Assembly (NCBI RefSeq): GCF_964204865.1
Contig: NC_135252.1
Span: forward strand, 13,103,383 to 13,167,382
Length of the DNA: 64,000 nucleotides
Source: Styela clava
Lineage: Eukaryota > Chordata > Ascidiacea > Stolidobranchia > Styelidae
Direction of reading: 5' to 3'
Positions 22,092 to 49,600 of the stretch are shown here, piece after piece (the stretch's first letter is position 1; every line of letters begins with the position of its first letter). The position numbers and the translations under genes are program-made. The notes under the pieces were generated by a model, which was not told the DNA's origin, made no database searches, and saw only the letters and a program-made list of their open reading frames with translations.

Positions 22092-23857
22092 TTAATCTAA
22101 TAAATAATCTGACGGGATCAGGTCGGAACATCCAAATGTTGTCAATGTGGATGGATCGACTCCGTGATCAACTGCAATAGCTGTGAATTGAGACATATCT
22201 TTTTGGTTTATCCTGGGTGTCCTGGTATAAAATTGAAACAGCTTCTGACCTAAAAACAGTGTAAATGCTTTATTTTTGAGTAACAGCAGTGAAAAGATAT
22301 TTGAGTTTATTTTGAGTTTGAGTTTGCAAAATATGCGAAGTGAAAACAGTAATATTGTGCTCTTTCCATAATTTGCATGAATCAGTCTAAACTTTTTATT
22401 CATTTTATCGGTAGAATATAACGTTGTTGTATACAATGTATAATAAACCCATTAGTCATACTTGTGGAAAATAACTAACAGTTTTGCCAAACCTTCTCGA
22501 TGTCTATATTTATTATGACATCATGAAAAGTCCAAACGTATTAAATTACGACATGATCACGCACCCCATACTATAACGAATTTTGTATTTTGATTTAAAA
22601 ATGTATTAAGTACCTATGTTGAATACTCACCATCATTCAACAATGTCAGATGACTGTAGAAAGTGTTGTAGTCAGTTGAAAAAAAGTGGGGTTGAGAATC
22701 GAACCAAGGTTCATCTGGAGATATAAAATTGGAATTCATTTTTTCTGGATATTTTTACATTTGTAATTTGTGCACTTATGTTACTGACCATGTGAGGGAG
22801 GTTTTATCTTTGTGTCAACCGGTGGTTGCTCTAGATATAGCTTTGTTTCTAACTCATGCCATTTCCCGTCTGAAAAATGAAATCGAAGTTTTTGATTGTT
22901 CAGTAAGTCTAATTCAAAACCAATAATCTCATCCGCATAACGGAGTTTCTTCGTATAAAAAAAACATGGTTCATAATTACTGATTATAGAAATGAAAATT
23001 ATTATTGTTTAGACACTCACGCGTGAGAGGATGCATCCAATATTGACCCAAAGAATCGCGCCTTATTTCTTCAGTAACCATATTCGGTAACTCTGATTTG
23101 TCCCTAATATATAAAAGAAAATGCCAACAGATTTTTGCATATTCAGAGCACTCGGATTAATTTAGTTAATTAAAAACAGATAGCTTTGTGCCGCTTGTAA
23201 CACAATATGAAACGTACCAAGGAACATTGTAGGTGTAGAAATTCATCGTATTCTCAGTCACGTTGAAAGGTGCAATAATATGGCATCTCCATAATACGTT
23301 CCAAGACCAGTAGTCTACACCAAAAGTGAGAAACCAAACTCCTTGCAACTAAAAGTAAATTAAAACGTGGAAACGTCTTCCCAATGTTTTGATCGCTCGG
23401 TGCGGAATAGATTGGACAAATTGCTTATATTAAACAAACAATATTATTGTTAAATAAAACTTTATAGGTGAGTAAAAAGTAAAAAGAACGGTACCCCCGT
23501 AGTATGTGTACCAGGTTAGGGTTAGGCCATAATTTTATTCTGATATTCCCTATTTAAATTTTATTACGAGTTCGGGAATTGTATATGTTAGCTCAATGAA
23601 TACACCCCCTGCCCATAGTAATCAGTTCCTGTACATAATCAGTTGTAAAGTAAGCGAACAAAATTGGTTACCTCCGTATTGGTACACATACTTCTGGAGC
23701 GCCAAAAATACACACAACATATTTTTAACTGCTGTTGGAAAATAAAAACATTTCAACTTACACGTTCCATATCTATTTCGTTTCCAGAATATATATCTCC
23801 ACACCATGCAAATGAGAAGATTGCGAGAATCACAAGAACTGAATATTCAGAGCCCAT
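22092..23857 (-). CDS. Secreted lipocalin B, 6 exons
   Basis: In transcript order the exons are 23857-23762, 23348-23218, 23103-23021, 22869-22789, 22714-22631 and 22249-22092, total 633 nt or 210 aa. Five of the six exons have exactly the lengths seen in lipocalin A (96, 131, 83, 84, 158 nt); exon 4 is 15 nt longer (81 against 66). A signal peptide (MGSEYSVLVILAIFSFAWC) is followed by G-V-W-F at the start of exon 2. Exon 6 has LFQFYTRTPR and FTAIAVDHGVDPSTLTTF, with C199 matching C194 of lipocalin A. The canonical T-R-T-P-R motif makes the family call firm. The ligand is unknown. It is clearly a tandem duplicate, and its divergence indicates the duplication is not recent. Confidence 0.91.
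23490..23703. mobile_element. Near-palindromic MITE, copy 3, expanded and diverged
   Basis: The left arm (GGTACCCCCGTAGTATGTG, then CCAGGTTAGGGTTAGG) and right arm (TTGGTACACATACTTCTGG, then AGCGCC) match the MITEs at 1673 and 17084. About 110 bp of extra sequence separates them. The flanks AAAAGAAC and AAAAATAC are only roughly similar. It lies in intron 1 of lipocalin B. Confidence 0.65.
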
Positions 23858-27449: not shown

Positions 27450-30400
27450 ATGAGATCTTATTGTATACTACTGATACTTTTACTGGGATTCTTTCTACAA
27501 CCAACCGTACATGGTGAGCATCTGTTTATAAATTTTTGTCGGAGGTCAGGTCGTCTAATTTGAATTTCGATTAAACACAATATAAAAGTGATCATATTCA
27601 GGGTGTGCCTTTGCTTAGGCACCACCAATACAGAAACAATGCAACAATGCAGTATTGGCCATTTCTTGCTAAGTTATTTCTGTAAAAGTTTCTAATGGAG
27701 TTTTTACAAAAATCAACAGCCTTTTTCTATTATATTCTTTTCCGTTTTATTTTTAAACGAGTTTTAGGTTAAATATTAAGCCGCTATGATATGAATGACA
27801 CATTCATTACCCGCGGGTATATTTACAGTTTAATAATCACGTTGAAGAACAATTGATGCTTTTAAATTGTTTTCAACCAACCTGAAAACTTTTAATCGAT
27901 TATAGTTTATCAAGTAGGCTAAAATCTTCAACATAAATCGTGCCAAAAATATAAACTGATTGTAAAACAGTTTAAATTATATACAATGTATACGTACTAA
28001 TTACCAGCTTGTCACAACGCTCTACATGTGAAGCCAAAGTCTGGATTGGATATTTCTGGACGAAGGAAGCGTCATGTTGGACCGCATCCGCATCCACACA
28101 GTAATCACTCATCAGAGAAGGACGCAGACCCAGAATTGTCTTTATTTTTCTCTGGTTGTATGTTTAAAAAAACTGGGCCAATGTTCGAATCCTGGCCTAG
28201 TGTAATCGATTTTATTCTACGGGATTTATACTGGTTTGAAGCCAGCGATATTGCGTATTGTGGGTAAGTTTTATGGTACCAGTCAGTGAAACAGATGAGT
28301 ATACTTTTCTGCTGTGTATTGAGTTTTATGTTGATGACAAAGTGAATGACAAACATTCTTTGCGGTAAAACTGTACGCCCGGGGTGTTATAACAACATAA
28401 TCTGTAAGGATATAATTTTGGGATGATATTGAATTAAATATAGTAATTTTGAAAGTTTGATTGCGATCTGAAGAAGAACAAATGTATTAGTATAAAATAT
28501 TAACCTCAGTGTAACCTAAACAGTTTTACAAAAATTTTTAGAACTTTGCATTGTTTTTCATTCCTTATTTCGTATATAATATACGTGTGACTATTCTTCA
28601 TGTTTTTGAGTTCATCCCTTATGAAAAGTAAAATTTCATCTTATTATATTCTAGGAATACAAGCAAGATGTGTTTGTTACGATTAATCACATTACTCAAA
28701 CGGTATTTATATTCAACATATTTTAGAGGTTATAAAGATACAGCAAGATGCTGGCAAAGACGACTGAACTTTTTACTTAAATTCGAATCTTCTCTAATGA
28801 TACCGGGAAAGGAATGTATACAGGAATACGATGAATCTATAAAAAGTGAAAGTAAGCAATAAATACAAAATGGGTGTATTTTATAGTTGACTTTGGATGT
28901 CAGTCGCTTCAATTAATGATTATATTTGGTTGATTTTAATTTTCACCACAAAAGCACAAGAGATTTTTTTAGTAAAATGAGACAAGTTTTTTATTTGTCT
29001 TATTATTATAAATCTATTGATTAACATAATATAATATAGACCAGGTATTTTGAACATTTTTCAATGAATGGTTAGATCCGAAATTTAAAAAACGGTTTAT
29101 CTGTTGTATCGAATCAACTAACAACAAGTTTTCTCATTTAAGAAAATGTTTGGAACGGGTTTGCTTGAAACCGATAATACATAATAAGGCACATTGCGTA
29201 CAACTTTCGTTATCTTCAGTACGTATGGTACCGTATCTGTTGTTAGTTGGGTCCGCAAAATGCTTAACGTAGGCACGCCAATTATTTGCGATTTATAGTA
29301 TTCAATATAGCGCCAAGAGAACATTTTATATCTGTCATGGAGCTTCTAAAACAAATTTCTTGTTCTTTTTATCGTTTTTATTTTGTGCATATGATATCGT
29401 TTCAATATGTAAACGAGATAGCATACATCGCCGACTTATCGATCGAAACTTTCTTGGCGGAAACTTGCGCATCGCACACACACACCCAGCACATGCGCGC
29501 TCTCGCGTAAAAATTCTAGGTCTTACACGTTCACGTTTCAATATGTAGAGGAGCATAATGCGCAGCGTAAATTTTACCTCCTTGTCGTCGTCGACACGGA
29601 AATACAAATCTGGGAGACGTTAATGACTGTGTTGTTCACTTAATTGCGGATTCTACCATTTAATTATCCTTATTTATTCCTTCGTAGTAGACATTTCTCC
29701 GTGGACGTTACAATTCTTGTGGCTCACGACGTACATCTTGCCGAAACGATATATAAAGATGTTCACGGCCTAAACAGTCACGTTCACATAAACAATAATC
29801 AACCCTGTAAAAATTACACGCCTTAATAGTGATATCCTGACATTCTTCCCTAAAATTCAGGAGGGGGAAGGAACGCACGTGGATGTGCCAATAACAACAG
29901 TATTTCACTTACTGTCAGATTCAATTTGGGCGGCTTTTATTATCAATTTTTATCACAGATATGCTTGTTTGTTTTTTCATTAATTCGCAACTTATCGAGA
30001 ACCGAAAAACTACGGTCACTTTGTGACACCCTATTTGTTGACTTATTTTGGGCGGTGGAGGTTTTTAAACTCAATTTTCATTGAAAACTGATCTTGGTTT
30101 AAAATACAACAATGTATGAATGTTACTCTAACTTAGGGCAAAATTTTGTGAATATATGGTATTATACCAAACTTTAGTGCAAAAATAATAGTATACATTA
30201 TCGTTATCATCGTAACAGGTTATCTTCATCTTCCAGGGGGACCCGCATTTGAAATTTTTTATCGAACTCATTATGATTCTTATCAGCATGAACCAGTTTA
30301 TGGAGAATTCAAACGATTCAAAAGACAAATAGTTGGCATTGATGACACACTGAGACGAGCAGAAGATATTTTGAACAATTTGGATGATTTTTTGGATACA

Positions 30401-32734
30401 AAATTCACAACACCGCGCTCGTATTTTCAAGGCAAAACGACAAGTGAGCCCGCTACTTTGACAAAGACAGAAAAAGAACGGGAATGTCCCAAATTTTCTT
30501 TAATCGAGTTCAACAATTGTATCCAGTCTCGAGTAGATGAATTAGTCCAAACACAGTTGATACAAAAATATCCGTCTTTAAGAAATTTTAACGAGAAGTC
30601 GAACATAGAGTTTTTTGAAGATCATATGTCCAGCTGCAGGTAAGCCTCGTTTTAAAAATTTATTTGAAAAAATTCCCATTTCTAATATGATTTACATCAA
30701 TGCTACTCTACGTAATACTGTTGGGAAATTCTCCCCTTCTTCCGAGATCTGTCGGGGCATATAACATTGTGGAAGCTGTGATATAACACGATGTTTTGTT
30801 TTCTCCTTACATTTTTTTAACTGGACGGTGTAAAATGCATTCAGTTTATTTATGCACAATGATAATAATTGATATGTTCATACTATTTTTTGTAACATAT
30901 AAGTAAAACATAACTTTTCCTTCAGAATAACTAAAGAAAGGAGAGGGAAAAACGTCGTTTACATTGAAAACTGCCCCGTATCGAACTCAAGAACAAAACG
31001 GCAATCGCCATTCAAACCAAATACTTTGTTGAACAGAGGCGAAATTTATACAGTAACGGACACAGGCCCATCTTTGCCAGGAAACAAACCTTTATACATA
31101 CCAACTTATCATTTCCCATCAGAACTATGTCTGATAATAGATTATCCAGATGTTGTCAAACCAGCCTCACCTGTTCGTGTACCTATCACATTATGTGCGG
31201 AGAAATATTTGGGAACATTTTTTAATAAAACAGACCAAGATTTAGATCTGATTCCAACAATTGACCCAAATGAGAGATCCATGTACCAGAGGCCAAGTTC
31301 TAAAGGTAAAGCTTTTAAAAAGTTACATATTATTAAATATAGAAAAATTTAGCGTGCTGAAACGCATTGAAATAATTAGTCAATTAGCAGCATATACGGG
31401 TCTCAGAATATGAATGATTCAACTATAAGCTGTCAAGATCGCTGAGCTTGCAAATCTTTTGTCGTTAATATTAAACGACGCAACGCTGAGGGTATAGAGT
31501 TTTGATTTTGTTATGTAGAGCCAAAATATATCTGCGCTACAGCACTTTTAGTTACAATGTTTTACTTTTAGCTACATGTTCATGAAATATTACATTAGGT
31601 AACCAGTCGCTTGATTTTATATGCTTTTCAGGAAAAATAGGATCGTGTACCAAGGATGACGCATGGACAAGGTATTACAACGTTGACAATCAAGACGAAG
31701 AAGGTGACTTTGAAACATTAGAAGATCTTCGCAATTTATTTCCAAAACTTATTTGTGATTCCCCAAAAGCAATTGACGTACGAATCGCAAAAGGTAACAA
31801 ACCTCACTTTAGATCGAAGGAGTCTCTTTATATTTCTCTCGCCGATGGTTTTAGATGTTACAATGACGAGCAAAAAGATGGCGTATGTGAGGATTACAAA
31901 GTTCGATTTTGCTGCCCAAGTGAGCATCTTTTTTTCATTTTTTTAAAGGGTAAAGGTCATTACGTTTATGTGTACGGAAAATCACAATTTTCTCATTAAG
32001 TCATCATTTTCAATAAATTATTGTATTATTCTATCTTCAAAATTATCTACTATTCATTACAATTATATTGTAAACCACATCTTCCCGCTCCCTGTGCTCA
32101 AATCCTCAACCTCAATCCACGAGGAGAATTGTTTAAAGAAAAAACTATCCGACCCAAGTTCATTACAACTCAGACCCGAGTTGGGTATACACAGGTTTGA
32201 CCTATGTTGGATAAATATTGAGTCAAAAGGTTTTCGGTGCCTTACTTGATCGTGTGTGAACTCTCAAAACCATACTATATGGGTCCAGGCAATTAAACTT
32301 ATTTATACGAGTCACACTGGAGCTTGTCTATTCTCCAACAAAAGGAGACTCGAGTCCTACTCGAACTGGATTGCCATTGTCTGATTTTCCTTGTTATGAA
32401 GACTAAAATAACATGTTAATAATAATAATGTTGTATTTCAGAACAACCCTTGTGCGAAGAACCCAGTTCTTGGACAGGATGGTTAAACAGGAAACGTGGT
32501 CGTTCGTTCGGGGATAGAGAAACTTTGGGATACCACAAGACCAATAACAATGTTTGCGACCACCCGCTGTCAATACGTGCGAGATTGAATGGCAGTAAGA
32601 AGCCATATTGGTTTGGAAATAACATTATTGAGATTTCACCAATCATTGGTTTAATCTGTCGGGATGCTGATCAAAGTGATAGACGTTGCAGGGACTACTC
32701 TGTTTCCTTCTGTTGCCCTTTACTATCAATGTAG
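27450..32734 (+). CDS. Secreted Cys-rich protein with two C-terminal WxxW domains, 7 exons
   Basis: Exons are 27450-27513, 28008-28263, 28727-28851, 30237-30639, 30926-31305, 31632-31919 and 32442-32734, total 1809 nt or 602 aa. Residues 1-22 are a signal peptide (MRSYCILLILLLGFFLQPTV). A furin-like R-R-K-R lies at 40-43. The N-terminal 300 residues are homologous, exon for exon, to the next gene (34691). Exons 6 and 7 each encode a mucin/CILP-type WxxW domain: C415...W421-T-R-Y-Y-N-V-D-N...GDFETL...RFCCP, and C510...SSWTGW...GDRETL...SFCCP. The order is therefore signal, novel module, WxxW, WxxW. In known proteins WxxW domains occur in mucins and cartilage intermediate-layer proteins, so an extracellular-matrix or mucus role is likely but inferred. 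An upstream in-frame acceptor at 28654 could add 24 residues to exon 3; the paralogue's exon length favours the shorter form. Confidence 0.88.
28008..31305 (+). other. Shared N-terminal Cys-rich module, copy 1 (exons 2-5 of the WxxW gene)
   Basis: Conserved with 36768-38608 are: G-R-[RK]-K-R-H-V; the block FF..C.F.KTG..F.SW..VIDF.LRD..W..ASD...C; CW..R......S.L....EC.QEY in exon 3; and EY or NF, then N.KS...F..H.S.CRIT and GNV.Y.ENCP in exons 4-5. Intron phases 1, 2, 1, 2, 1 are identical in both genes. Exons 1 plus 2 total 320 nt in both. Copy 1 has a longer exon 4 (403 against 217 nt) with extra basic sites (K-R-Q) and a longer exon 5 (380 against 191 nt). I do not recognise the module. Confidence 0.85.
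29115..29250. repeat. Short inverted-repeat element candidate in intron 3 of the WxxW gene
   Basis: CAACTAACAACA near 29115 and its reverse complement TGTTGTTAGTTG near 29239 bound about 135 bp of non-coding DNA. No target duplication is obvious, so this is only a possible small MITE. Confidence 0.3.
31632..32734 (+). other. Two tandem WxxW domain exons
   Basis: Exon 6 (31632-31919) and exon 7 (32442-32734) each encode one complete WxxW domain and are separated by a phase-1 intron. The second keeps the canonical W-T-G-W; the first reads W-T-R-Y, losing the second Trp. Both end in F-C-C-P. The first carries the typical YNVDN....GDFETL run. Confidence 0.85.
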
Positions 32735-34690
32735 CACAGCATATGTTAAATTGAATTTCCCAATCATGTTGATTATAATTTTGTGCCAAAAACACGAAGG
32801 ATATGCAGTTTGTGGTACAACTCTGAAGTAAACTACTCAATGCTATGTAGTCAATGCTGTACCAGATTTTTACTGAATATATTTTTAAGTTTGATGATAT
32901 CTGAAAAAACCACATTTGTATTACCTTAACTTTCTCTATCAGTGTTCAGTGTTTCAGTTTTCTGTAATATTAAATTGAACAAATTAGCAGTATTAGTAAA
33001 TACATGTATTTGAAGAGTATTAATCACAAATTAAAACTATTATTTTGTTATATCATATTCAATCGATGATTATGTGATGATGACAGGGCAAAAATGCAGG
33101 ACTGAAATTCTTTGAGGTGGTAAATAGCATATCAGTTTAATCGAGCAAGCAGCATTGTCATTTTGGAATTATAGTACTTGTAAAATTAGGTAATTTAAAT
33201 AGTAGACAGTAGTCATTTAAGATCCATCACCCTTCGGGAAAATATAAAAATTGGCATGAATAAAGATATTTTGGGCATAAGGAAAATGTTGTCCCCAGAT
33301 CATGACGTAGCATATTTTAATAGGACAGTAGACCAAGGTTAGCCAGATGATTATCGATATTCGGCACAAATTACGTTTATAGACAATTATCTAGCTAGCT
33401 ACACAACAGAGAAAAGGAGTGCAATTTTCATCATCTTATATATGCGGCAAGATGAACAAAAAAAGTTCAGTACTGGCATTCCGCAAGAGATTGCCACAAC
33501 AGACTCCGACAACTATTAATTCAGCAAAAAAAACTCTCTCATAATTCTAATAATGAGCGGTGTACCAAATTTTTTTATCGAGCTTCCACGCAAATATATC
33601 AATACCTCCAGTTATTAAAACTAGAAATACATTTGTGTTAGTGCGCTGCAAGACTTGAATCAAAGACGCAGTTTCAACAAAACTAGAAAAAAATGCAAAG
33701 ATATTCTCTAGTGACCACAAGGATAAAAACTAGGTAATGACAAGCAAACTCCAAGATTCTCTAATTACATCTACGCAACAGTAGCGATACACGAAATCAT
33801 TGTATTATTGTATTACAAAATGGCCATATCGCCAAATCTAACTTCTTTGCGCTTTTCAGAGTTGCTTTTTATATATTTATTAAAAACAATAGTAACATAC
33901 TTAAGCTATACATAGCATGCAGTGCTGCATTAGAAAATAAGACAAGACAAATCTAAGAGTTCTTCGGACTTTGTCAGAATTAGCTCACACCACACATCAT
34001 GCTGGTGTCGGCAAACTCTTTCAAAACCGACGGGAACTGACTTTGCAACAATTTCATACAAATTTAGTTACAAATACTTTTTTATAACTTGCCCCATTTA
34101 GAATAATCCAAACTCAACTTAAGAACATGCTTAAACTACAATGTATCAAGCTAGCATTTTAATGAGCACAAAGGAAGATTGAAATTTTTAATCGCGTGAA
34201 AAATGTTTTTGCTTAGATTTGGATGCGAAGTGACGTCTCAGTACGAAGTACATTCACTAGACTTCAATTCCAATTAAATAAGTTTGTGACCATCTTTAAT
34301 TAATTAAGCATTTGGCATTCATTTGAAGTTTTGAAGTGACATATAGAGAGAATTTAAAAAGTATCGGCTCGTTGTTTTTTATTTTGTTAATATTATAGGC
34401 TATGACTTCCACAGAAAGCAATTTACCTCACACGTTGCAAACAAGATTTATGCATGGTTGATTTCGGTATTTAATCGTGCACAAATATAATACTATGACT
34501 AAATACGTAAAGGCTGTGGTGAACAAAACAACAACATATTACTGCCTTAAGGAAGGCCTGAAGGTATATTAACGAAATGAAATATGTCATCGAACTTGAC
34601 AGCATATACGCCAGTGCGAATTGAATTATTAACCAACTGACAACAGAAGACAACAGTCAGATTTTGAACTGAGTTGGTAAAATACAAAAA
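32735..34690. other. Spacer between the two paralogous secreted genes
   Basis: About 1.96 kb of AT-rich DNA holding the 3' UTR of the WxxW gene (AATAAA in GAATAAAG near 33258) and the promoter of the EGF gene. I see no gene or clear repeat. Confidence 0.6.
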
Positions 34691-37600
34691 ATGTGGTTTC
34701 AAAAAACCTTACTGCTTGTGTGTTTCGTTTTTATGGGAGTAGAAGGTAAGTTATCATTTTTGTTTTTTATCTGAAAATGCCCGGACGACAATTTATTCGA
34801 TATGATTATTATCTATCGAATATTTGCCTGCGCAAAAATAAGAATGAAGTTTGCTTTTGGTTTAATAACATTGTTCATTATTTGGTATTTGTGCCAAAAA
34901 AAATTTGTTTTTGCGCGTTTTTTATATGGAGAATTATTGAGGTAAATATGCAGAAACATTTCATAGAAATTAAAATATTATTGTGCTTCTTCTTCTATTG
35001 ATTTAGAATGTTGTCTTAGCCATTGCGGATAAAAACCGACCGATTAAGAAATTTTTTTTTTGACAATTCCGACAAATTATCCAACACTGAATGCCCAATT
35101 TACGATGATACGTACTGACGCATTCCCATCGTGCATTCGAGACGTAGTTTTTCTTGCGGACGCAATTCATCACGAATGAAAAATAGTTACACTGAGAATG
35201 ACGATAATTATTGTTAAAAGATAAGAAAAGAAAAAAATTTGAATGGAGAAAATTTTTTGGTTTATCGAATCTTCTTCCTCTAGCTTTTAGTATTTTGATT
35301 AGAGGATGGCCATAAATCAACGGACATGAGAAACATGGTCAGCGTATGCACGTAAAATGGCATTCAGAACAAACGTATTTTGCAAAAATAAATAAACTCT
35401 GTCAAACAACACTTAGTACGATAAGTTGTAACAAAGACCCATTAATCTCTCCTTTAAACACAATCCGTGCGCTTCAACAAGAATGAATATTATTGAGCAT
35501 CAAAGAATAAAATCAGTGTTCAGTGAAGATGGAATTGTCAGTTGAACATGATTAAAGATGTTTACCATCGATCGGATTCAAATGCTTCATAAAATAATTA
35601 ATATCGTAATCAATTAATATTACTTAAAATATTGTGGTAAATAATGATATCATCATTAATATTTAAAAGCATTTATTTATAGTTTTACAACCACCGCGAT
35701 ACGGAAATTTTCATGTAGACTCGCCCTCAAGCCATTTCATGTAAATGCTTTCGTTACATTTTTAATTTTGACGTGAGCATTTTGAGACGAATCGGTGACT
35801 CATCTCATGTCAAAATTTAATTAAAACATATTGAGTCATTTTAATTTTCGATTTCTGTATTGAATGGAAAGTACAGGGTTTCGATGCTAAAAACATTTCC
35901 GAACGAATATATTATTGCCAGGCATGGAACGTACGTGAAATACTCTTTATCAATGAAACATACCAACTTTCATGATTATAAGTTTCCAACAGTTTCATAT
36001 AAACTTTTCCACTTGCAGACATTAACTTGTTTTTATCCATATCAAGCTATTCAAAAATAGTAACGTTTTTTCTTGGTGCATAGAAATGTGATTCGGTCCA
36101 TTAATAGTTTTCTCTATTGTTCTTAGTCAATAAAAATATAAGATATTGTAGATTACAGAAAATAGGAAAACTATCCATTTCTAAACATTCATCGAAATCT
36201 CGACATTTTTACGTTTACATCTTCACTTAAAATCTTACATTTCATTAGAATCATAAGAATATATTAATCTAGAAGTTCAATTCTCTAAATTAACAAATTA
36301 ATGTTTAAATACTGTCGCAAGATAGGTTTAAATTATTTGTGAGAACAAAAGAAATGGCACTGCTGTTATGAATAAATATTTCGTAAATTCAAAATTAAAA
36401 TGTAATGTGGTATCTCAACATTTTTCTGAAATAACATGAAAGCAATCTCTTGCGCACTCATTCGGAAATAAGAGACACTCATACTAGAAAAAATTTCGGA
36501 TGGCATATGAAATACCACGAGCTAGTGAAATATTTCAGATTGATGGTAGCAGTTTCTTATGTTGTGAACAGCGTTTATTAAATAGCTTCGTATGTACATA
36601 TTTTTTAATTTTTAAAAATGTACGCCAAATTAAATTATTAAATTTTCCCTGTGTTGTAATTTTTCAACTCCCAAATTGAGCATATGACGAATAATTCTTT
36701 ATGTTGATGTTGTAACATTTTTTATGAGCAATATTTCGAGTTTTAACTTTCCTCGTCTATGTTCCAGCGTGTCGAATGCCAAGTAAAGATTATCCACCAG
36801 ACGCGTTCCCCGAACATGGCGACCAAGGCGATCAAGATGGGGATTCACAAGGCAGAAAGAAAAGGCACGTGGTAACTAACCCCCACGACGTTGACCATGT
36901 TTTGAGCGACTTTTTCACTACATGTTTGTTTGATAAAACCGGAAGTGTTTTCTCATCGTGGAGAGCCGTTATTGATTTTGTTCTTCGTGATACAAGATGG
37001 TATTCTGCATCCGACGAACAGTTTTGTAAACGGTGAGTTTATTTGAAAATAATAATTTGAGTCTATGAATTCATAGAATTCAATAATGATTTACCATTTT
37101 AATAGGATTAAATATAATTTAATTTGTGTTTCCAGACAATCCAATATTAATTAAATGAAAGCAACAATAAACCACCTTATTTTACAGAAACTATGACCGC
37201 GAAATTCCTGTTGAATGCTGGCAGAATCGTTTTGAAAAGCTCGTTGCTCTAGATTCAAAGTTGCTTCCAAAAGCGAAGGAATGCATGCAAGAATATGCTT
37301 GGTCGAAAGGTAGGAGATATAATTTCCATATTATATTCTTATAAAAAAGCGTTGCAGCAACATACAAAGGGTAAGGTATGGATGTTCCTATTCTGTTACG
37401 ATAAATAGAAAATCTTATCTGCCATTTACATGACAATCCCGTTGGACATCGGATGGAAATTTCGAAGATTTTAGAAGTGTCAGTAAATGAAGATATAAAC
37501 AATGCCCACAAAAATGAGTATATCATAAATAATTTCCCAACCCGATTTTCAATTCATGTAGTGGTTTCGAATGCATAACTTGTACAGCCTGATAAACCCC

Positions 37601-40600
37601 AAAGTGATTGGAAATTGAAGCAATGAGGATACGGTGGTATTTTTGATTGTTATTACCTTTTATTATTTTCTTTTCTAGAAACACCTATCCGTGGAAAACG
37701 TGGCGTGGCGTCACCTGGACGTCCTCGAACCACCTTAAAAATTGATATTTGTCTTGGAATTTCCACAAAGGAATATGGATCTTGCGTGGAAGATAATCTC
37801 TTAACTAGAAAAAATATTGCAATGTATGGTTCATTGAAAGAATATAACCAGAAGTCCATTGATGACTTTGTATCCGATCACTATTCTGAGTGCAGGTATT
37901 GATTGAGCTCTTACGATATTTGGTATAAGAAATATACCGGAATGCATAATTAACTAACACTTTACCGTTTAAGTGCTACAAGTATTTTTTCTTGAAAAGT
38001 ACACGCGCAAGGTGAAAGTATTAAATTACACTGTGCGAGACTATTTTTCAACAGGCATTTCACCAAACATAACACCACAGATCTTCACAAGTATCTAAGA
38101 AATTAGACTACAATGTGTCCTGGAAGTACATCAACAGCCAATTATTAATCAATTAAACTGAATTATAAAAACATACATATGAGATTCTATTACGACATGA
38201 ACTGAAAAATCATTGCTAATTGATAGGTAAAAACGTCCTATATATATATATATATATTAGTATAATTGTGCATGAGTACAATGTAACAATGTAAAATTAC
38301 AGCAAACTATTGTGACTCTCCATTGCTATTCCATTATATTTACTGGGTTGGTCAGTTTCGTTTGGTGTTTCACGGTATGGCAAAAAAGTTAAATCAAATG
38401 CTAACAATTTGTTTTAGAATCACATCTCGGTACAACCGTTTTACTGGAAATGTCTACATGGAAAATTGTCCAATTCATTATTTGAATCCATCATTCAATA
38501 CAGCACCTCGTACGCCTACATGTTTGTCAACAACGTTCAAGGAAATTGTACGAACTTCATCGCCTCTTTTCGCTGCAACAAAAACTTGTATTCAAAAATA
38601 TTCTAACGGTGAGAACTTTATTTTAATTTACATGTACACATATTGATTTTGTCTCATACGCGTCATTTTTGTTAACGTTTGCGCAATATTTGTGGGTAGT
38701 TCAGCATGTATTTGGTTTGTTTCGAGCGCCCTCAATGAACACGAGGTGTGATACAGCATTAATTTAGCCCCGGGCTCGATAAATTAATCCGTATTCTGAA
38801 CGACGGAGCAAACACGTAGAGGAATATTATTGCTGTGCTAAAATTTTAAGTAAAATTTTTTTAAATTTTTATTTTGCAAGTTGTCTCATCTTTCTTAATT
38901 AAATATTACATTAATTAAATTACATTAAATATTACATAAATTAAATAAATACAGCATTAATTTAGCCCCGGGATCGATAAATTAATCCGTATTCTGAACG
39001 ACGGAGCAAACACGTAGAGGAATATTATCGCTGTGCTAAAATTTTAAGTAAAATTTTTTTAAATTTTCATTTTGCAAGTTGTCTCATCTTTCTTAATTAA
39101 ATATGGATGGTGGATTAAGCATCAAATTTACGCTTTCCCTGCAGTTCATCCGTATTTATGGGCTGCATCGCTATGTATTATCACTATTTTTACTGCAGAT
39201 AAATGCAAAAATGTGAAATGCTGGCGTCCGTATGAACAATGTGACCCATCAACTGGAAGATGCATTTGTCGGCCGGGATATGAGAAAAATAACCGAGGAA
39301 CTTGTGTTGGTAAGACGTCAATAGGCTGTTGCTGTTTTCTCTCCATCTCCACTTTTATTTTTTTTTAAATTCTGTATTTTTAAACAGAAGAAAACAAATG
39401 CCGGGCCAGATTCTGCAGTGGCTTACACAAAGTGTGTGATCCAGATACGGGAAACTGCGTCTGCAAGGAAAACTACGTCTTGAATGCACGCGGTGATTGC
39501 GTCAGTACGTATTTGTTACTTTTTTATCGAAATTGTAAAAAAAATATTCTTTTTCATTGATTGGTTTTTATTCGTAATGGGTTAGACCAGGGGTCTCCAA
39601 CTCAAAACATGTCGTGGGCCACTTTTTAAAATTTATTGACTACGCGGGCCGCAAACCAAGAAATCAGGTATAAAAATGGGTATCTGAATGTATTGTGTTG
39701 AAATTACACTTGAATCTCACAGCAAACGAGACATGAAACATATTCATTCACTTGTGCTGGATATTTGATCTCGATGTTTGGCCTTATTTTGCGTTGGTGT
39801 GCTAGTCTTAAGACAGCATGCAAATGCTCGTCCGTTAGTCGTGTGCGGAGGGCTGACTTGCTAACTTTCATAGTGCTTTCATAACTGCTCGCAAATATAA
39901 GAACTGCCAAAAATTGCAGGTATGCAAAGTGAATGTGCAATTAGCTTTGCAAACCATTCTTCGGGCACAATGGAGTGACCGAAACTCGTTTATTTCGTCA
40001 CAATGAACATGCGAAATAAAATTATCGCATCTATAATAATTGCATCATAACAAAATTATAAAACATGAACGTGGACAACAGGGGGGAATTTTGCTTCACT
40101 TTTCACAGTTTGTCGGACTCTTGATGATAAATGACGCGATAAAACCTACTAATAGTGAACGTCGTACTATCTTAGTTTTTGTGGAAAAATGCCAAACATG
40201 ATGCGGACGCAAAAAAAAAATGGTTGGCGGTCCGCATGCGGCCCGCGTGTTGGAGACCCCTGGGTTAGACAATATTCTAAATTGACAGAGGCAGAAACAC
40301 AATAATATTCTAATTTCTGTGAAATGTTTCCGCAGTCTGAGTCGGTATTTTTTTTAAATCTTTGCCAAATAGCATACCCCGATTTGTTGTACAATGAATA
40401 AAGTGATGCTCGACGTTTCTCTAAATACACCATAAAAAATAAATTTAGTGGTTTACGATTTTATCAATTATTTGGTGATTTTTTATTTTATTCACTCTCT
40501 TTATGTCTGATGTTCAATTTTAGTGCTGAGTAGATGCGCATTGATATTTTGTGGAGGACAATATAAAACTTGTGACGAACGAACAGGATTATGTGTCTGT

Positions 40601-43600
40601 ATGGAAGGTTACGTTCCAGATGGGAACGGTATTTGTCGTGGTGAGTCCCATCAATTCTGTCGCTTCGTTTTTCTTTATTCCCTGACTTTGTCCTTGTTGG
40701 TTCTTCTGTACTACCTTAGCTCGTTGTTTTCATACCCACTTATTTATTTCTCTTCTCTACTTGAATATTTACTGCAGAAATTATAGTTTATCTTTGTAAA
40801 AGTTTTAGTTGTTTTTAGAACAATCTTCTGATCCATGTCGGAGAAAGATTTGTGGCGTTGGTGAACAATGTGTTGTATATGAAGGATCCCCGTTTTGTGT
40901 TTGTATGGAAGGTTACGAAAGAATTGTTCCTGGAATATGCAGAAGTGAGTCGGTATTACTATAAATTTTAATGCTATTTCAGCTTTATATATAATAGTGT
41001 TTTCTATTGACGCGGTTTCATTATATCGGTGGAATTAATATGAATACTCCAATTAACATTCATGTGTCATTTGTGAATATTCTTTTTTAATACTCTAATT
41101 ATAACGTAATTCTTTAAATTGCAGTGCCAAACAATTGTCGCCAAACGAATTGTGGGCCTAATGGTAGATGTAGAATGAGACAGGGGCGGCCGGTTTGTTT
41201 TTGCAATCCTGGGTATATCAGGAAAGGCGGCAAATGTGAACCAGAAGGTATTACTTTTTGCTTATTCTTGATAAACTAAATAAATGAAGGGGTGAGTTAA
41301 AAATGATACATAATGTATGATAATATAGAAAATGAACCACTTACCACTCACAATTTTGTTTTCGTCCTCCCCCCTTATACCCTCAAGAAGGAGTCGTGGA
41401 ATAATTGAAAATTCAGTTTAATGTAACGCATATCTATCTTTTTACACATTCAGTTTAATTTAAAACCCAGCATTTGATACGACTTATTGTTTCCACAGTA
41501 ATTGATCCATGTGCAACTGTCCGTTGCGGTAGATATATGGAGTGTAAAGTCGATCAATTCGGTGCACCAGGTTGCGTTTGCATTGCTGGATATGTTCCTG
41601 ACCCTGAAATGAATGGAGTAGGCTGCAAGCGTCCTGGTGAGTAGAAAGTTAAATAAAAACTACTGCGAGTTTAGCTTAATTATTGATAGGGCATACCTTT
41701 GTGCAGACTGATAATTATAACGCGAAAGTGCTTGAGACTTGATCCAATCCGATTAGTTATCCAAAAGTATGTTGCGTTGGACAGTGTGTTTAATCACACA
41801 GTTGAACTTAGATATTTTTTTATAACAGACCCGTGTGATAATGTTGATTGCGGTCCGCACGGTAGATGTGTCAGAAACGGAAACTGTGTTTGCAATCCGG
41901 GATATAGCAAAGTAAACGGACGCTGTGTTGGTAAGTTATCCCAATTTTTTTTTTTTTTTTTATTTATTTATCACAATTTCTTGCTTGATGATAGTTTAAT
42001 TCTGAAATGCATCTGAAAAAGGAAACTAAAATTTTTTTTTTTAGATCCTTGCGAAAACATTAATTGTGGGCCAAACGGTAGATGCGTAAGAGGGCGTTGT
42101 ATTTGCGATAGAGGTTTTGTAGAAGTTAACAGACGATGTGTTGGTAAGTCAATAATAAATCCTATAGTGGTTACGTATTTGATACAGATAGTTATTTGGT
42201 CGCTCTATTTATATCGCGATAGACTTGAATTTTCAATCACCTTCAATCACATTATAAGATGACTTATATCATTTTACTTATAATTCGCAACAACTATCCT
42301 CCTAGCTAAAAGATTGTTCAGCATAGCTCTCCATTATACACAACAATTATCACTCGAGTCAGGTTTGAAGTCTGAAGGTGACCAATGGCTCACGGTGGGC
42401 TTAATATAAACGTCAATGTTTACAATTCAGGGTGGTCCAAAGCTGTCGGCTTCGGCGGGAACAAAATTATTTTTGCATTGTTCGCGGGCCACAATAGTGC
42501 CAGGAATAGGTGAACTGTGCAATAAAAAACAAACACTTTTATTGTGCAAACGCATTGAACGCATTGTCATTTATCAAGCTAGAACATGCAAAAAATACCA
42601 AAACACGTACTAAAACCAGCAAAAGTCTTTCCATATCTACATTTAGTGTAAGATTTCAAGCTATTCAGAACGGAAAAAGCGCTTCCGAAAATCTAAGTGC
42701 TTTCGAACATCGATGAAATCTTCAAACCACCAAAATCTTAACTTTGGAAAATGCTCATTGCTCACACGATTCTAAAATTCTGTTTTGAATTATATTCCTT
42801 TGTCACCGACCGACACGACTTGCCTACATATCAAGCAAGCATTGTGGTATTTATTATTCCTCACCCATCCAGTTAAAAATCTGTTTGAATTCGTCAGCTT
42901 TCTTTTCAAACTCATGTTTACAAAATAACTTACAAAAAACTGCAGATTGATCGATTACCAATTGTGAGGTACGGAAGGGTAATTACAAAATTTTCTGATA
43001 TGCAGCATTTTTTAAAATACTGTTTAGGCTGGTTGCAAAAAAGCCGGCATGGATTATATTATTAGGCCATAACATTAACGTTCAGTTATCAGGCATAGCC
43101 AACCTAGGCTAATAAAATCCGGATTCGATTTTTAGTTTTCTATGATGCCAAAATTGGTAGGATATATATTTCCGACCAAAAAGGTAGAAAGCAAGATAAC
43201 AATTTAGACTGCCTAGCCATAACACTAGTCAATTCAATGACATTATTGATGTAACAATTTGTCGAAATATTTTTTGGGGTTATTTTTATGACGAAACAAC
43301 ACCAAATGCGATTTTTTTTAATATTCTCGTAATGCGACGCGGGTCACAGACAATGAGTCCGCGGGCCACAGACAATGAGCCCGCGGGCCTGGGTGTGGAC
43401 CACGCTGGTCTACATAATCATGATATTATAAAAAAAAAAAAAATGAGATCATCGTTGAATAAACATGGATCTTCTTGATTTCTATTCCACTTTTCGCGAT
43501 GAATTCAAAATGGAGGATTCACAAAAGCAATTTTTACCATCAATGTTCATACAATATTAGGCATTTTCCAAAAATTATACGAATATTCCATTGTGTTTTT

Positions 43601-46600
43601 ATAATGCGTAATCTTACAATCTGCTAAAATAATGAGCATTTTTGCCTCGTTTAACGCAATTTTCGATATGTTTTACAGGTCCATGTGACGGTGTTACTTG
43701 TCCAGATAACAGTGCCTGTAGTAATGGAAACTGCGTGTGCGATTCTGGATTTTCTAAAAACTCAGACGGAGAATGCATAAGTAAATGAATTTTTTTTTCC
43801 ACAGTCAACGCTCTATTTTAAATAATATGAAGTTTTTTTCTTAGCATTTCTTTAGCATGCAGTCACTAACAGTCTTTTATTATATATATATATACCTGCA
43901 ACAAGTACCAAAACGAGTTTATAAGCTAAGGCACGAAAATATGTCGAAATATAGGTTTGATACATATTTTTGAAAGTAAATACAATTTTGCAATAGTTAT
44001 CGATTTTTTTCAGGAATAAACCCTTGTGATGGAGTTACATGCGAAAGGAATCAGAGGTGCGTTAGGCAAACTGGACAGTGCGTCTGTTTACCTAATTTTA
44101 TTCCCAATCCAGTCGGACCTGGATGCGTACCGAGAGGTAATAACTTTATATATGTGTTGATAGCCGTTTTGTTATAAAAAGCATGTGTTTTGTTGAAAAG
44201 GTTTGAGGCTGTATAGGCTTTTCTCCAAAGTTTCTCAGATATTGTTAAATATATACAGTTGATCACAAAAAATAAGAATCATTGATTTTACTTCTTATAG
44301 GCGTCAATACTACTAACGTTCAGTTTTTATCTTTGTGTAAATAATACCAATGAATACCAACAACCTTGATTTAAAAACGGCAAAGGAAAAAATTACTCAT
44401 TATATCTTTTCAATATTGATCCTCAAAATTGTTTAGTCGTGAACTATCAAGCCAAAAGCTAAGTTTGTGTAAAGTCAAATAAATGAAAATTACACAAATC
44501 CATTTCTGGTAAAACCACAAAAAAATTGTAAAAAAAGTTTCATTGGGGGATAGATAAAATTTGAGTTCATTCGTCAAAGGGTTACCAAATCTAAATTCTT
44601 CATTTTTTTTACCACTTCGATTCATTACTCAGACCGTTGCGCTGGTGTGACATGCACCGGTAACAAGGTCTGCGATAACGGAAACTGCGTGTGTGCATCT
44701 GGATTTAGAGAAAATGCAGATGGAGAATGTACAAGTAAATGATTTTATTTTCACAGTCAATGCTTTATTTTAAATAATATGAAGTTTTTTTTTAATTTTA
44801 GCATACAGTTACTAACTGTCTTTTTTATATATAACTGCAACACGTACCAAAACGAGTTTATAAAGCTAAGAAACGAAAATATGTGGAAATATAGGTTTGA
44901 TACATATTATTAAAAGTAAATACAATTTTTCAATAGGTATCGATTTTTTTTTCAGGAATAAACCCTTGTGACGTAGTTACATGCGAAAGGAATCAGAGGT
45001 GCGTTAGGCGAACTGGACAGTGCGTCTGTTTACCTAATTTTATTCCCAATCCAGTCGGACCTGGATGCGTACCGAGAGGTAATAACTTTATATATGTGTT
45101 GATAGCCGCTTTGTTAAAAAGTGCATGTGTTTTGTTATAAAGATTTACGCCTGTATAGGCTTTTCTCCAAAGTGTTTCAGATATTGTTAAATATATACAC
45201 AAAAAATAGGAATCATTGATTTTACTTCCCATCGTGCGTCAATACTACAACTGTTCAGCTTTATCTTTGTGTAAATAATTTTGGATACCAACAACCTTGA
45301 ACTAAATCGGAAAAAGAAATATATAAAATTACTCATTATATCTTTTAAATATTGATCCTCAAAATTGTTTAGTCGTGAACTATCAAGCCAAAAGCTAAGT
45401 TTGTATAAATTCAAATAAATGAAAATTACACAAATCCATTTCTGGTAAAACCACAAAAAATTGAAAAAAAAGTTCCATTTGGGGATAGATAAAATTTGAG
45501 TTCATTCGTCAAAGGGTTACGAAATCTAAACTCTTCATTTTTCTATCACTTCGATTCATTACTTAGACCGTTGCGCTGGTGTGACATGCACCGGTAACAA
45601 GGTCTGCGATAACGGAAACTGCGTGTGTGCATCTGGATTTAGAGAAAATGCAGATGGAGAATGTACAAGTAAGTCCGTTTTATGCTTATTTGTGATGTAG
45701 TACTTATGTGCTTTAATTAACAAACATCAAAAATATGCTGGCGTTTTTTTTAAACTATAACTTAGTAATAATCATAGGCATTTTCAAATTAAACCGTTGA
45801 TAGTGTATGGGAAGATTAGCTCATTCTCAACCGATGACTCGTGGTCGAAATAAGATCATGATGGAGCCAAGAATCTAGCCCCAAAGACCGAAAAGTACAC
45901 AGTTTGTTTGCAGAGTTTAATTCTCTAAACCTAATCTCTGCAACGAAATGATTTTTCGATATTCAATGTTCAATTCAATGTGAAATTCTCCAATTTTGTC
46001 GTTACAACTTTTTTTTTCAGGAATAAGCCCATGTGAAGGTTTTAGATGCCCAACAAACATGAGGTGTCAAGTTAGAGGGGAAGGTCAAGTATGCGTTTGT
46101 TTACCTGGCTTTATACGAAACCCTACTAATGCTCCTGGATGCATAAGAGGTATGTTTATATATCATACTTTTTTACCCGAACAAATATGTGGGTTCATAA
46201 ACAAAGTCTAACCGAATGGGCGACATTCTGAGCAAAATTTCCTGTCAATACTGTCAAACCCATAATGTGATGTCACAATATCAACATTAAATTTTATCAT
46301 GGTAATGAAAAAAGCCTGGGTCCTAATTCGTGGTTTCTTCAACTGTTATTGTGCTATAATCAGATGCGTGCGCGGGAATATCTTGTCCGGACAACAGCGT
46401 GTGTATCAATGGAGATTGTATCTGCCAGCCACCATTAAGAAAAGATGAATCTGGTCAATGCGTCAGTAAGTATCACGAGTTACAATATAATTCTCTCTAA
46501 TATTAGAATCTGACGTCTGTTCGTCCTGATCTCAACTAAATATTTAAAAATGTGCCGATCTTCTGTACTTTGTAGAAAATTTGGATTTAAGCGGGGTTTG

Positions 46601-49600
46601 TAATCAAATAGGAATCTCAATATTTTTCATTTTGGATAAATTAATTTGACTCACTAGAAAATATTTTGTTCATATTATTTTTTTATAACAAATGTCACGC
46701 TGACTGATAACAAAAAAACATATACACTCTCGATCGCTGCGGAAGGACCAAATTCCACTGACGTGTAATAAAGACTTATTTCAGGTTGTAATAAATTTAA
46801 GTATTGGTTGATCTTGAAAAAGTGTTATTTGTAAAAACTCAGGTGGAAGTCTATGCGACAACTTTCCTCCATGCGGAAGAAACGAAGAATGCCGAATCAA
46901 TTCTGATGGTTTGCCTGAATGCCAGTGCATGTCAGGTTTCATCAGAAATCCAAGAGGATCTGGTTGTATTGCAGGTAAGGTGGTTTGATAATATATGGAT
47001 GGTTGTAAAGTATTTTAATTTTGTAAGTCTACACAGATGTGTTTTCAACACTGCAAGAAGCAAACATTTTGTGTATAATTTTTTCAATTCAAAAAGTGTC
47101 GTTATATTCTTACGAACTTTACTGCGCATCATAGTACATTAACACTGTATTACCAGAGAAGGCAGTATTGGAACAATTCCCTGTGATGTTTGGACCGTAC
47201 ATGGTGGTAGTAAAGTGGTAAAATTTAAAACAAAAATAGAACGTAAAAGCAGGCTGAATTCTTCTGTAGCAGGGCGACGTCATCAATTGAAGCGCTGAAT
47301 TTGCAAATTCCTCAAATCCAATTGTAAATTTCTTGACAACGATTTTATTCATATATATCAATAGTTTTGGAGAACGCTTTGTGTGAAAATTACATAAGAA
47401 AAAGATAAGGCTGCAAATAGTAATCTAGTATTAGCATTTGACCCTTTGCTATACACACGTTCATAAAACTTTCACAAATTTTTGGCACCATGGCCACATA
47501 GCTGAGAAAACGTAGGCATACGCTAATGAAGATCCGCGAGTGAAGTTTCAGGGCCTAATGGTTGATGATTTGAATAGCTTTGAAAAATCCGATACAAATG
47601 GGAAGAACCCAAGCCTACGGAGCCTAAGGAATAAATAAATGTTCGTTTGTAGAATCAGTTTCTATACTTTTGACTTGAACATTTCTAATATTCCGCACAA
47701 CTTCATACATATCGATCCCAACCATATCAACAATATTGTATTTGCCTAAAAGACATTGTTCCATCAAGTTATTCCAATTTTACAATTCCGTATTTCTAAA
47801 AATGTTCGCAAAAATACTTGAATGTATTATTTCACGAATATGATTTCTTTACGTAATTTCTCAAATACAGATCCATGCAGTACTTTGGATTGTGGAGATA
47901 ATAGTGTCTGTGTTCGAGGAAGATGCCGATGTTCGCCAGGATTTAGAGAAAACGATTCAGGAAACTGTGTTTGTACGTCTTTTTATTCTTTATTCTTTTT
48001 ATTCAACAGCAATCAACAACCCTATGTGTAGAAATACATTTTTTGTAACCCATCATTTTGGTTATAGATACTCCCTATATTAGAATTAAGTGAGATGCAA
48101 TGAGGAAACATTTTGACGCTTTCCATTTCGCTCTGATCGTAGCTTAGGTAGAAGCATGAGTTATGCAAGAACCCGGCGTTAACGCATGATATAAATGAAT
48201 AAACAATAGTTTTACTATCCATGGAGCTTGCCGCATATTTAGTCCATGAGAACAGTCGTGTTATGGTTGAAATCTTCTATGCTAATGAAACACGGTATGC
48301 CAGTGCCACATCAATGATATTAGGCAAATCTTTTGTTCATTTATAGCGTTCGATGTATGCGAAGATTTCTGTGGAGAAAACGAAGACTGCGAAGCTACGT
48401 CTGGTAGACCAAGATGTTTCTGCAAAGCAGGATTTACACTCAATGAATTCCGAGAATGTGTCCCTTCAAGTGAGTCGCAGGCATTCGCATTATGGCCTTC
48501 AGATGTATATTCATCCGTTCCACCAGATAGTAATTGAAATGAAAATTAATAAGAGAACAGGCCATTTACCTCATTTGTAAACAAAACATTCAAGTCCATC
48601 ACCCAATAGAAAGTTAGTATGTTTAGACATTAACGTGTTAGATGAAACAAGATCAAAATAAAGAATGTTCAAAATATGCATTTACCATAAGAATACAAAA
48701 ATTCACGTTTTTATCGCCGAATTAGCAAAAAAGTTCTTTTTCTTTGTGTTTTTACAAATTAAAAACACACAATATGTTTTTTTATATTATCTACCTATAT
48801 CTGGAATATAAAAAGCACTTTTAACACACTGAAACTAACCATTATCCTATTTTGTATACTTTATTAATCCTCGAGGCGAAGCATAGAACATGAAATATTT
48901 ACTTTAGATTGCTATGGATTAATGGTGCTAAGATATATTGAATCCCCTTTGTGTTGAGAGTTTTCCAATCGATTCAAATTTTAAAATGAAATTTAATTCA
49001 ATTCATGAAATATTTAAGAATTTCTAAAACAATTTAATTAACCGACTAAAAAAAATTTGAAGCAATAAATTTAAAAATCACAAGTGAGATGTTTTTCAAC
49101 GAGAAGTAAGGAGTATTGGATATTTTCGTGTTTTAGAAATAGATACATCGTTCATTCAGGATGAGTTGATTGAAATTACTTTATTAATTTCACAAATTTT
49201 TATCATTGGTATAAATTCATTGGCTACCCAGATTTTTTCGTCAAAATCAGAACATGGATCTATATCAAAACCCCGCCTTATTTAATGCTAAACATTAGCC
49301 TACAACTAAACAACTCCCGACACATTTTGATTCATGCAATCCGAGAAAACAGAAGTAAGCTATTTAAAATAGCTTGAATAATGAGATGATTTTTTGTTCG
49401 GTGCTGGCTCCCTACTGGATAGTTCAAAAGAGAAAAAATTCCATCAAATGCATTAGGCACACGCCATGAGCCAATCTCCTTTTGCAAAATTACTGTAAAA
49501 ACGATCTTGGAAAAAAATTGAGTTTCACTGAATTGACTTAAAAAAAAACACTCATTTTGTTATATTCAGCAACGGATCCATGTGATGGAGTTACCTGCGG

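Follow-up and report, generated by a model that had tools for sequence, protein, structure and literature searches.

The Mucin2_WxxW domain (PF13330) is called CysD in gel-forming mucins, a class of proteins defined by VWD domains together with WxxW/CysD. For the oikosins of the Oikopleura house, the passages describing them report that 35 of 80 have no similarity to known proteins (PMC3390340). Here we analyze a stretch of 64,000 nt from the 376.6-Mb genome of the ascidian Styela clava (C3:13103383-13167382, contig NC_135252.1; hereafter the window, to whose positions all coordinates of genes A and B refer), in which two adjacent genes, A and B, lie on one strand with 1956 bases between them and begin with a common module. 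We interpret both as members of a tunicate family of secreted mosaic proteins in which this module is the head of exchangeable extracellular tails and is subject to furin-type processing, a reading that we give a probability of roughly 0.55. Its basis is homology, intron phases, conserved cysteines, motif enrichment, and diverse downstream domains, and the secretion and adhesive tails of A and B themselves are well supported.

One module in two neighboring genes

Gene A (27450-32734, stop included) was rebuilt from the sequence as seven exons with a 602-aa product, and gene B (34691-51705) was modeled as 29 spliced exons in one open frame of 1226 aa, its first exon being the stronger of two candidates that a scan of 33000-36760 returned; exon joins of these and all other genes are based on splice signals and open frames. 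A sequence-only reading of the window had proposed that the two genes share a five-exon N-terminal module with matching intron phases, and our models agree, given that exons 1 to 5 are followed by introns of phases 1, 2, 1, 2, and 1 in both genes and that the modeled junctions of both modules are AG/GT. We also confirmed that exons 1 and 2 sum to 320 nt in either gene (64 + 256 in A, 55 + 265 in B), that a basic site is followed by H-V in both (RRKR-HV in A, RKKR-HV in B), and that the block FF..C.F.KTG..F.SW..VIDF.LRD is present in both, as FFSGCMFKKTGPMFESWPSVIDFILRD in A and FFTTCLFDKTGSVFSSWRAVIDFVLRD in B. Exon 4 of gene A, with 403 nt, exceeds its gene B counterpart in length.

The two modules align by blastp with 54 of 124 residues identical (98.2 bits), and identity reaches 50% across exons 2-3 downstream of the basic site. 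No match between the A and B loci, in exons or introns, was found by blastn at E≤0.01, and codon differences over 234 aligned codons amount to 110, 91, and 153 at positions 1, 2, and 3, a pattern as for coding sequence under constraint. Because blastn finds no match and third codon positions vary most, the likeness of A and B is an old one at the protein level.

Family members and the search for a name

Searches of the S. clava genome, which scored the best candidates only and whose counts include each query's own exons, returned at least 19 exon matches with the A query and at least 24 with the B query at E≤10 as well as, at E≤1, at least 28, 8, and 7 with the family members C17.1, C3b.2, and C3c as queries (see Table 1 for all loci). 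With 18 stretches of 10 kb taken from the genome for exon modeling, complete or incomplete models of the module were obtained for 13 loci, spread over five contigs. Of these, C3b.3 was modeled only partially and, with exon 2 outside the sequence examined, was excluded from the tree and from the 12-gene motif count, while the splice models of C16b, C8.2, and C3b.1 are missing some exons. A hidden Markov model (HMM) built from exons 2-3 of A and B matched 19 of 6042 open reading frames (ORFs) at E≤1e-3, or 15 when the own exons of A and B are excluded, across the window and eight other regions, seven of which had been chosen because single-protein searches had matched there; each of 20 column-permuted profiles matched 0 of the same ORFs at this threshold. 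Since regions were chosen by matches, independent support for the HMM result comes from each gene's further exons, found on the same strand and in order. Among the exons of genes other than A and B, with all three phases allowed, the top-scoring donor lies in the expected phase for 25 of 27 exons and the top-scoring acceptor for 23 of 27, a test that omits 12 of 39 exons (eight exon 5s and four others). A further module match at C8:22578685-22579808 consists of three pieces (best 9.1e-5) with internal stops, and weak ones were found at C8:9486575 (E 0.028 with the C3c query, 0.66 with the C17.1 query) and C2:17845659 (E 0.025, B query).

We compared the module to known domains by profile searches of Pfam, PDB sequences, and NCBIfam, the last being a library for prokaryotes. 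None of ten full modules scored above a Pfam cut-off: eight had no match at E≤1, and two gave matches below it (ANTH with 14.6 bits, cut-off 21.5; BAHCC1-like_Tudor with 12.3 bits, cut-off 28). The 12 exon 2-3 units drew a single Pfam match (Sec8_C, E 0.21) and none in NCBIfam (0 of 12). Against 177635 PDB sequences, the whole-module profile had 0 matches at E≤10 and the exon 2-3 profile three poor ones, none of them credible (best E 0.78), and searches of an open-access full-text library returned nothing that names the module. The earlier suggestion that the two genes share a secreted module to which no named domain corresponds has thus withstood the Pfam profile check, which gave no match above cut-off. 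Judged from sequence, the module looks like an apparently unnamed building block of tunicate secreted proteins; that it is restricted to tunicates is our conjecture.

Alternatively, the module may descend from a known domain, e.g., a helical disulfide domain, and have diverged beyond the reach of sequence profiles. Members are highly divergent, with end branches of up to 4.4 changes per column in a tree of 12 module genes, and the predicted fold is probably helical: AlphaFold2 gave helices only for the C1 copy, modeled as an ORF that reads through its open exon 2-3 intron, though this all-helical prediction is only a hint because its mean predicted local distance difference test score (pLDDT 64.7) and predicted template modeling score (pTM 0.39) are low. 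Set against the lack of any Pfam match above cut-off and of credible ones among PDB sequences, we consider this alternative plausible at somewhat less than even odds.

Anatomy of the module and its tails

Of 12 genes, 11 have a hydrophobic phase-1 candidate for a first exon no more than 6 kb upstream (weak in C17.1, none in C17.2). Applied to random windows, the same scan returned candidates in 67 of 200, and on the opposite strand in 1 of 12 windows; because random windows also yield candidates, individual signal peptides are no more than likely except in A and B. The first whole codon of exon 2 is Cys in all of the chosen models (12 of 12 genes), and six invariant and two near-invariant cysteine columns stand out among ten aligned modules. 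In C8.1, the exon 4 ORF (C8:22591394-22591744) has HSSYER in place of HYSYCR, so that a near-invariant cysteine is gone, perhaps as a lost cysteine or in a decaying copy.

At the level of motifs, the module carries the R-x-[KR]-R pattern of proprotein convertase substrates. Of 12 genes, 8 have it in the exon-2 prefix, ahead of the FF block (shuffle mean 0.33, maximum 3 in 2000), and 7 in the linker that leads up to the exon-4 cysteine (shuffle mean 0.35, maximum 4), with both sites in A, B, C17.1, C17.2, C8.1, and C8.2. The linker scan of C3b.2 ended at the exon-4 cysteine, and a later RGKR in its unsupported exon-5 model is not counted. This enrichment makes cleavage at the basic sites likely.

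An HMM of exon 3 scored 23.3 and 18.7 bits on two of ten exon 5s, compared to at most 8.9 bits in 500 shuffles with fixed cysteines, and when built without A, B, and C16a still reached 19.6 bits on exon 5 of B and 18.1 on that of C16a. These two exon 5s are clear relatives of exon 3, a helical-looking C-x21-C unit. With the other exon 5s matching exon 3 weakly or not at all, the B/C16a line alone may have undergone a later change.

Modules were joined to tails by order, strand, and, where examined, phase, and tail assignments cover 10 of the 13 loci (all except C8.2, C17.2, and C3b.3). WxxW domains above the PF13330 cut-off lie downstream of the module in A, C3b.1, and C3b.2, with the gene A protein reaching 112.8 bits in two stretches (curated cut-off 22.4; 1.2e-32), while EGF domains follow in B and C16b (by Pfam) as well as C16a and C1 (by eye). 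In the tail of gene B, EGF_TEN (82 bits, curated cut-off 65), EGF (23.1, cut-off 21.5), and cEGF (31.2, cut-off 26.6) are all above threshold. Certain exons of C17.1 and C16b look ShK-like by eye in their cysteine pattern. Unlike in gene A, an exon-5-like piece of C3b.1 (8.4 bits, 0 of 500 shuffles as high) shares one open exon with WxxW (stretch L031:4182-4667), which makes this join independent of splicing, and the exon is tied by order only to exons 2-3 ca. 6 kb upstream. As in gene A, the acceptor of the WxxW exon that follows C3b.2 is of phase 1.

Four near-identical WxxW exon pairs ca. 6 kb apart lie at C18:9644292-9663226, where neither profile matched the module at domain E<3 in the 30 kb examined. 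In the window, a short stretch at 21747-21788 resembles the end of a WxxW domain (E 0.48) and is perhaps a relic or due to chance. Another candidate relic, inside the EGF-like array of gene B (45704-45850, E 1.8), was dropped and is absent among the 54 genome PF13330 matches listed. The same array contains a two-exon EGF unit twice (44014-44734 and 44956-45668, ca. 0.94 kb apart), with second exons that encode 33 identical residues and first exons that differ at two positions, probably a recent tandem duplication. By eye, the intron between module and array of gene B has a near-identical direct repeat (ca. 38752-38908 and 38950-39106).

In the mechanism that we propose, the module, with its eight largely conserved cysteines, would be encoded by one exon for the signal peptide plus two pairs of exons (each pair with phases 1-2-1), and the signal peptide would bring the protein into the secretory pathway. 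A furin-type proprotein convertase would recognize R-x-[KR]-R and cut immediately ahead of the first exon pair; roughly half of the copies would be cut again ahead of the second pair, and disulfides may hold the cleaved pieces together. The tail (WxxW, EGF, TIL, TSP1, or ShK-like) would then set binding in extracellular matrix, mucus, tunic, or blood-cell secretion, with the module as a common assembly or processing head. From the sequence features described above we infer cleavage, disulfide pairing, most module-tail joins, the place of action, and the function of the head domain. A head role in matrix, tunic, or blood-cell proteins is suggested by the accompanying domains and by analogy to tunicate house and blood-cell proteins as described in published passages (PMC3390340, PMC9395347).

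Several observations weigh against this interpretation. First-exon candidates also turn up in a third of random windows, R-x-[KR]-R is lacking from either stretch scanned in C16a, C1, and C3b.2, and C16b and C3c carry the first basic site only and C3b.1 only the second. Beyond B and C16a, exon 5s score at most 6.3 bits with the reduced exon-3 HMM, and the exon-5 assignment of C3b.2 is unsupported (75 of 500 shuffles score as high). We had also considered the whole module as a duplicated exon pair, but exon 2 matches exon 4 with 4.4 bits at best compared to up to 8.7 in shuffles, and without detectable homology between exons 2 and 4 this idea is unsupported. The sole structure model, made on the read-through ORF of C1, is poor, and the ShK-like exons of C17.1 and C16b have no Pfam match at E≤0.1.

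A bolder version of our interpretation can be put forward only tentatively. The module would be a tunicate-restricted disulfide-helix domain, to whose origin the doubling of a C-x21-C exon contributed, and would have become a universal head for both secretion and processing, onto which at least five kinds of adhesive tails were swapped; furin-type cuts would free or activate the head, and exon shuffling on this one new domain would have built a matrix or immune toolkit peculiar to the lineage.

History, processing, and known systems

The earlier reading of the window had invoked a tandem duplication followed by fusion of one copy to WxxW domains (A) and of the other to an EGF/TIL array (B). 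As stated, a history of a single duplication and two fusions is not supported in view of 13 loci, WxxW in three genes, EGF in four, and the likeness of gene B to C16a, a copy from a different contig, which is closer (77 of 152 aligned residues) than that to A (65 of 155). The module tree has no starred branch and neither recovers nor rejects A and B as one clade (p-value of the approximately unbiased test, p-AU, 0.123), and the three WxxW genes as one group are not rejected either (p-AU 0.177). A tree of nine WxxW rows (two near-copies dropped) likewise showed no starred branch for a common WxxW lineage of these genes. The module has a wider history than one duplication and two fusions. With B nearest to C16a, A and B as a clade not rejected, and no starred branch in the tree, such a duplication with two fusions is possible but not needed; phase-1 exons that repeatedly exchanged tails explain the data no less well. 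One tandem duplication at the A/B locus with subsequent independent fusions to WxxW and EGF/TIL would fit the adjacency of the two genes (same strand, 1956 bases between them) and their identity at 54 of 124 residues. Given that B is nearer to C16a than to A, despite the p-AU of 0.123, and that WxxW follows the module in two more genes and EGF-like repeats in three others (two by eye), we consider it unlikely.

The basic sites could also be those of a hormone- or cytokine-like precursor, in which double furin-type cleavage would free the first exon pair as a ligand and leave the rest as carrier or matrix anchor. Exons 2-3 are flanked by basic sites in 6 of 12 genes, the six named above, and the freed piece would be a peptide of ca. 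90 aa with four cysteines that is helical in the low-confidence all-helical prediction. Yet the other half of the genes lack one or both sites, large adhesive tails would be an odd carrier, and the cysteine just after the signal peptide and those of the second unit could link the pieces, which makes such a ligand quite doubtful. A further possibility, that there is no family and the exons match only because helical ORFs with cysteines occur by chance, would suit the weak single matches at E near 1 but is refuted in the main by 0 ORFs for each of 20 permuted profiles vs 19 for the real one and by phase agreement in 25 of 27 and 23 of 27 exons, and we regard it as highly improbable.

Table 1. 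Exons of genes A and B (window positions) and further loci of the module family (contig and Mb) with their tails
Feature	Position	Strand	Description
Gene A exon 1	27450..27513	+	Signal peptide MRSYCILLILLLGFFLQPTVH; ATG, hydrophobic core, gtgagc donor; phase 1
Gene A exon 2	28008..28263	+	First whole codon Cys; RRKR-HV; FF..C.F.KTG..F.SW..VIDF.LRD block; phase 1-2
Gene A exon 3	28727..28851	+	CW..L.FLL...S.L...KECIQEY; phase 2-1
Gene A exon 4	30237..30639	+	Second basic site RFKR; ..YPSL...N.KS...F..H.SSC; phase 1-2
Gene A exon 5	30926..31305	+	NVVYIENCP, C..V..ASP....C.EKY; phase 2-1
Gene A exon 6	31632..31919	+	Mucin2_WxxW domain 1; PF13330, 72.4 bits
Gene A exon 7	32442..32734	+	Mucin2_WxxW domain 2 and stop; PF13330, 54.8 bits
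Gene B exon 1	34691..34745	+	Signal peptide MWFQKTLLLVCFVFMGVE; 55 nt; GTAAGT donor; phase 1
Gene B exon 2	36768..37032	+	RKKR-HV and conserved block; phase 1-2
Gene B exon 3	37188..37309	+	CWQNRF...KECMQEY; phase 2-1
Gene B exon 4	37679..37895	+	Second basic site RGKR; phase 1-2
Gene B exon 5	38418..38608	+	CLSTTFKEIVRTSSPLFAATKTCIQKY; phase 2-1; related to exon 3
Gene B EGF-like array	39199..50496	+	21 exons of phase 1-1, splice-consistent; Pfam EGF_TEN 6.5e-23
Gene B TIL-like exon	50760..50942	+	PF01826, 0.00012, 22.6 bits, under curated cut-off 24.5
Gene B EGF exon	51253..51363	+	PF00008 match at model residues 1159-1188
Gene B last exon	51599..51705	+	EGF-like, contains stop
A, B	C3 13.13 Mb		
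C16a	C16 9.00 Mb		EGF-like repeats by eye; Pfam label TSP1_TSH7A-B_C, 35.7 bits
C16b	C16 12.77 Mb		EGF, 33.4 bits; ShK-like exon by eye
C17.1, C17.2	C17 11.86 Mb		C17.1: ShK-like by eye
C1	C1 15.97 Mb		EGF-like exons by eye; TIL, 28.3 bits, above cut-off
C8.1, C8.2	C8 22.59 Mb		C8.1: TSP1-like exon by eye, no Pfam match
C3c	C3 11.47 Mb		TSP1, 62 bits, three stretches
C3b.1, C3b.2, C3b.3	C3 13.63-13.65 Mb		

Upstream of gene A, two sets of ORFs that look similar by eye and follow the same order lie on the minus strand at 18280-19068 and 22614-23424, which suggests a tandemly duplicated multi-exon gene. Exons on the plus strand at 10313-10956 resemble what we take to be a cationic amino-acid transporter of the SLC7 type. 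Elsewhere in the genome, on C9, a PF03552 cellulose-synthase match (26.6 bits, cut-off 24.7) lies ca. 2 kb from a PF01341 GH6 match (35.4 bits, cut-off 27) on the same strand, a pairing that identifies the genome as that of a tunicate; tunicate cellulose synthase carries GH6.

If limited to tunicates, the module would plainly exemplify a novel extracellular domain that originated in the sister group of vertebrates and spread by phase-conserving exon shuffling. Proteins that annotation now labels by their tails only could then be named after it, and its regular basic sites make its processing directly testable.

Compared to described systems, exons 6-7 of gene A and the WxxW exons of C3b.1 and C3b.2 are members of Mucin2_WxxW, while the module that precedes them lies outside PF13330. 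WxxW is the sole Pfam family found in the 602-aa model of gene A at E≤1, with no VWD, so that gene A lacks this domain of gel-forming mucins and differs from them in their defining feature. Ci-META1 is a secreted ascidian EGF/TSP1 protein and is alike, by description only, in the domain types of the tails. The oikosins resemble the module genes as secreted proteins expanded by duplication with EGF, TSP1, and ShKT among their domains, but the passages that describe them, by which alone they are set against the module, contain no module like it (PMC3390340). Tuphoxins differ, in the passages on them, by a tyrosinase domain of which none was seen in the tails of module genes examined, yet they are likewise ascidian secreted mosaic proteins that combine EGF and TSP1 and for which limited proteolysis has been suggested (PMC9395347).

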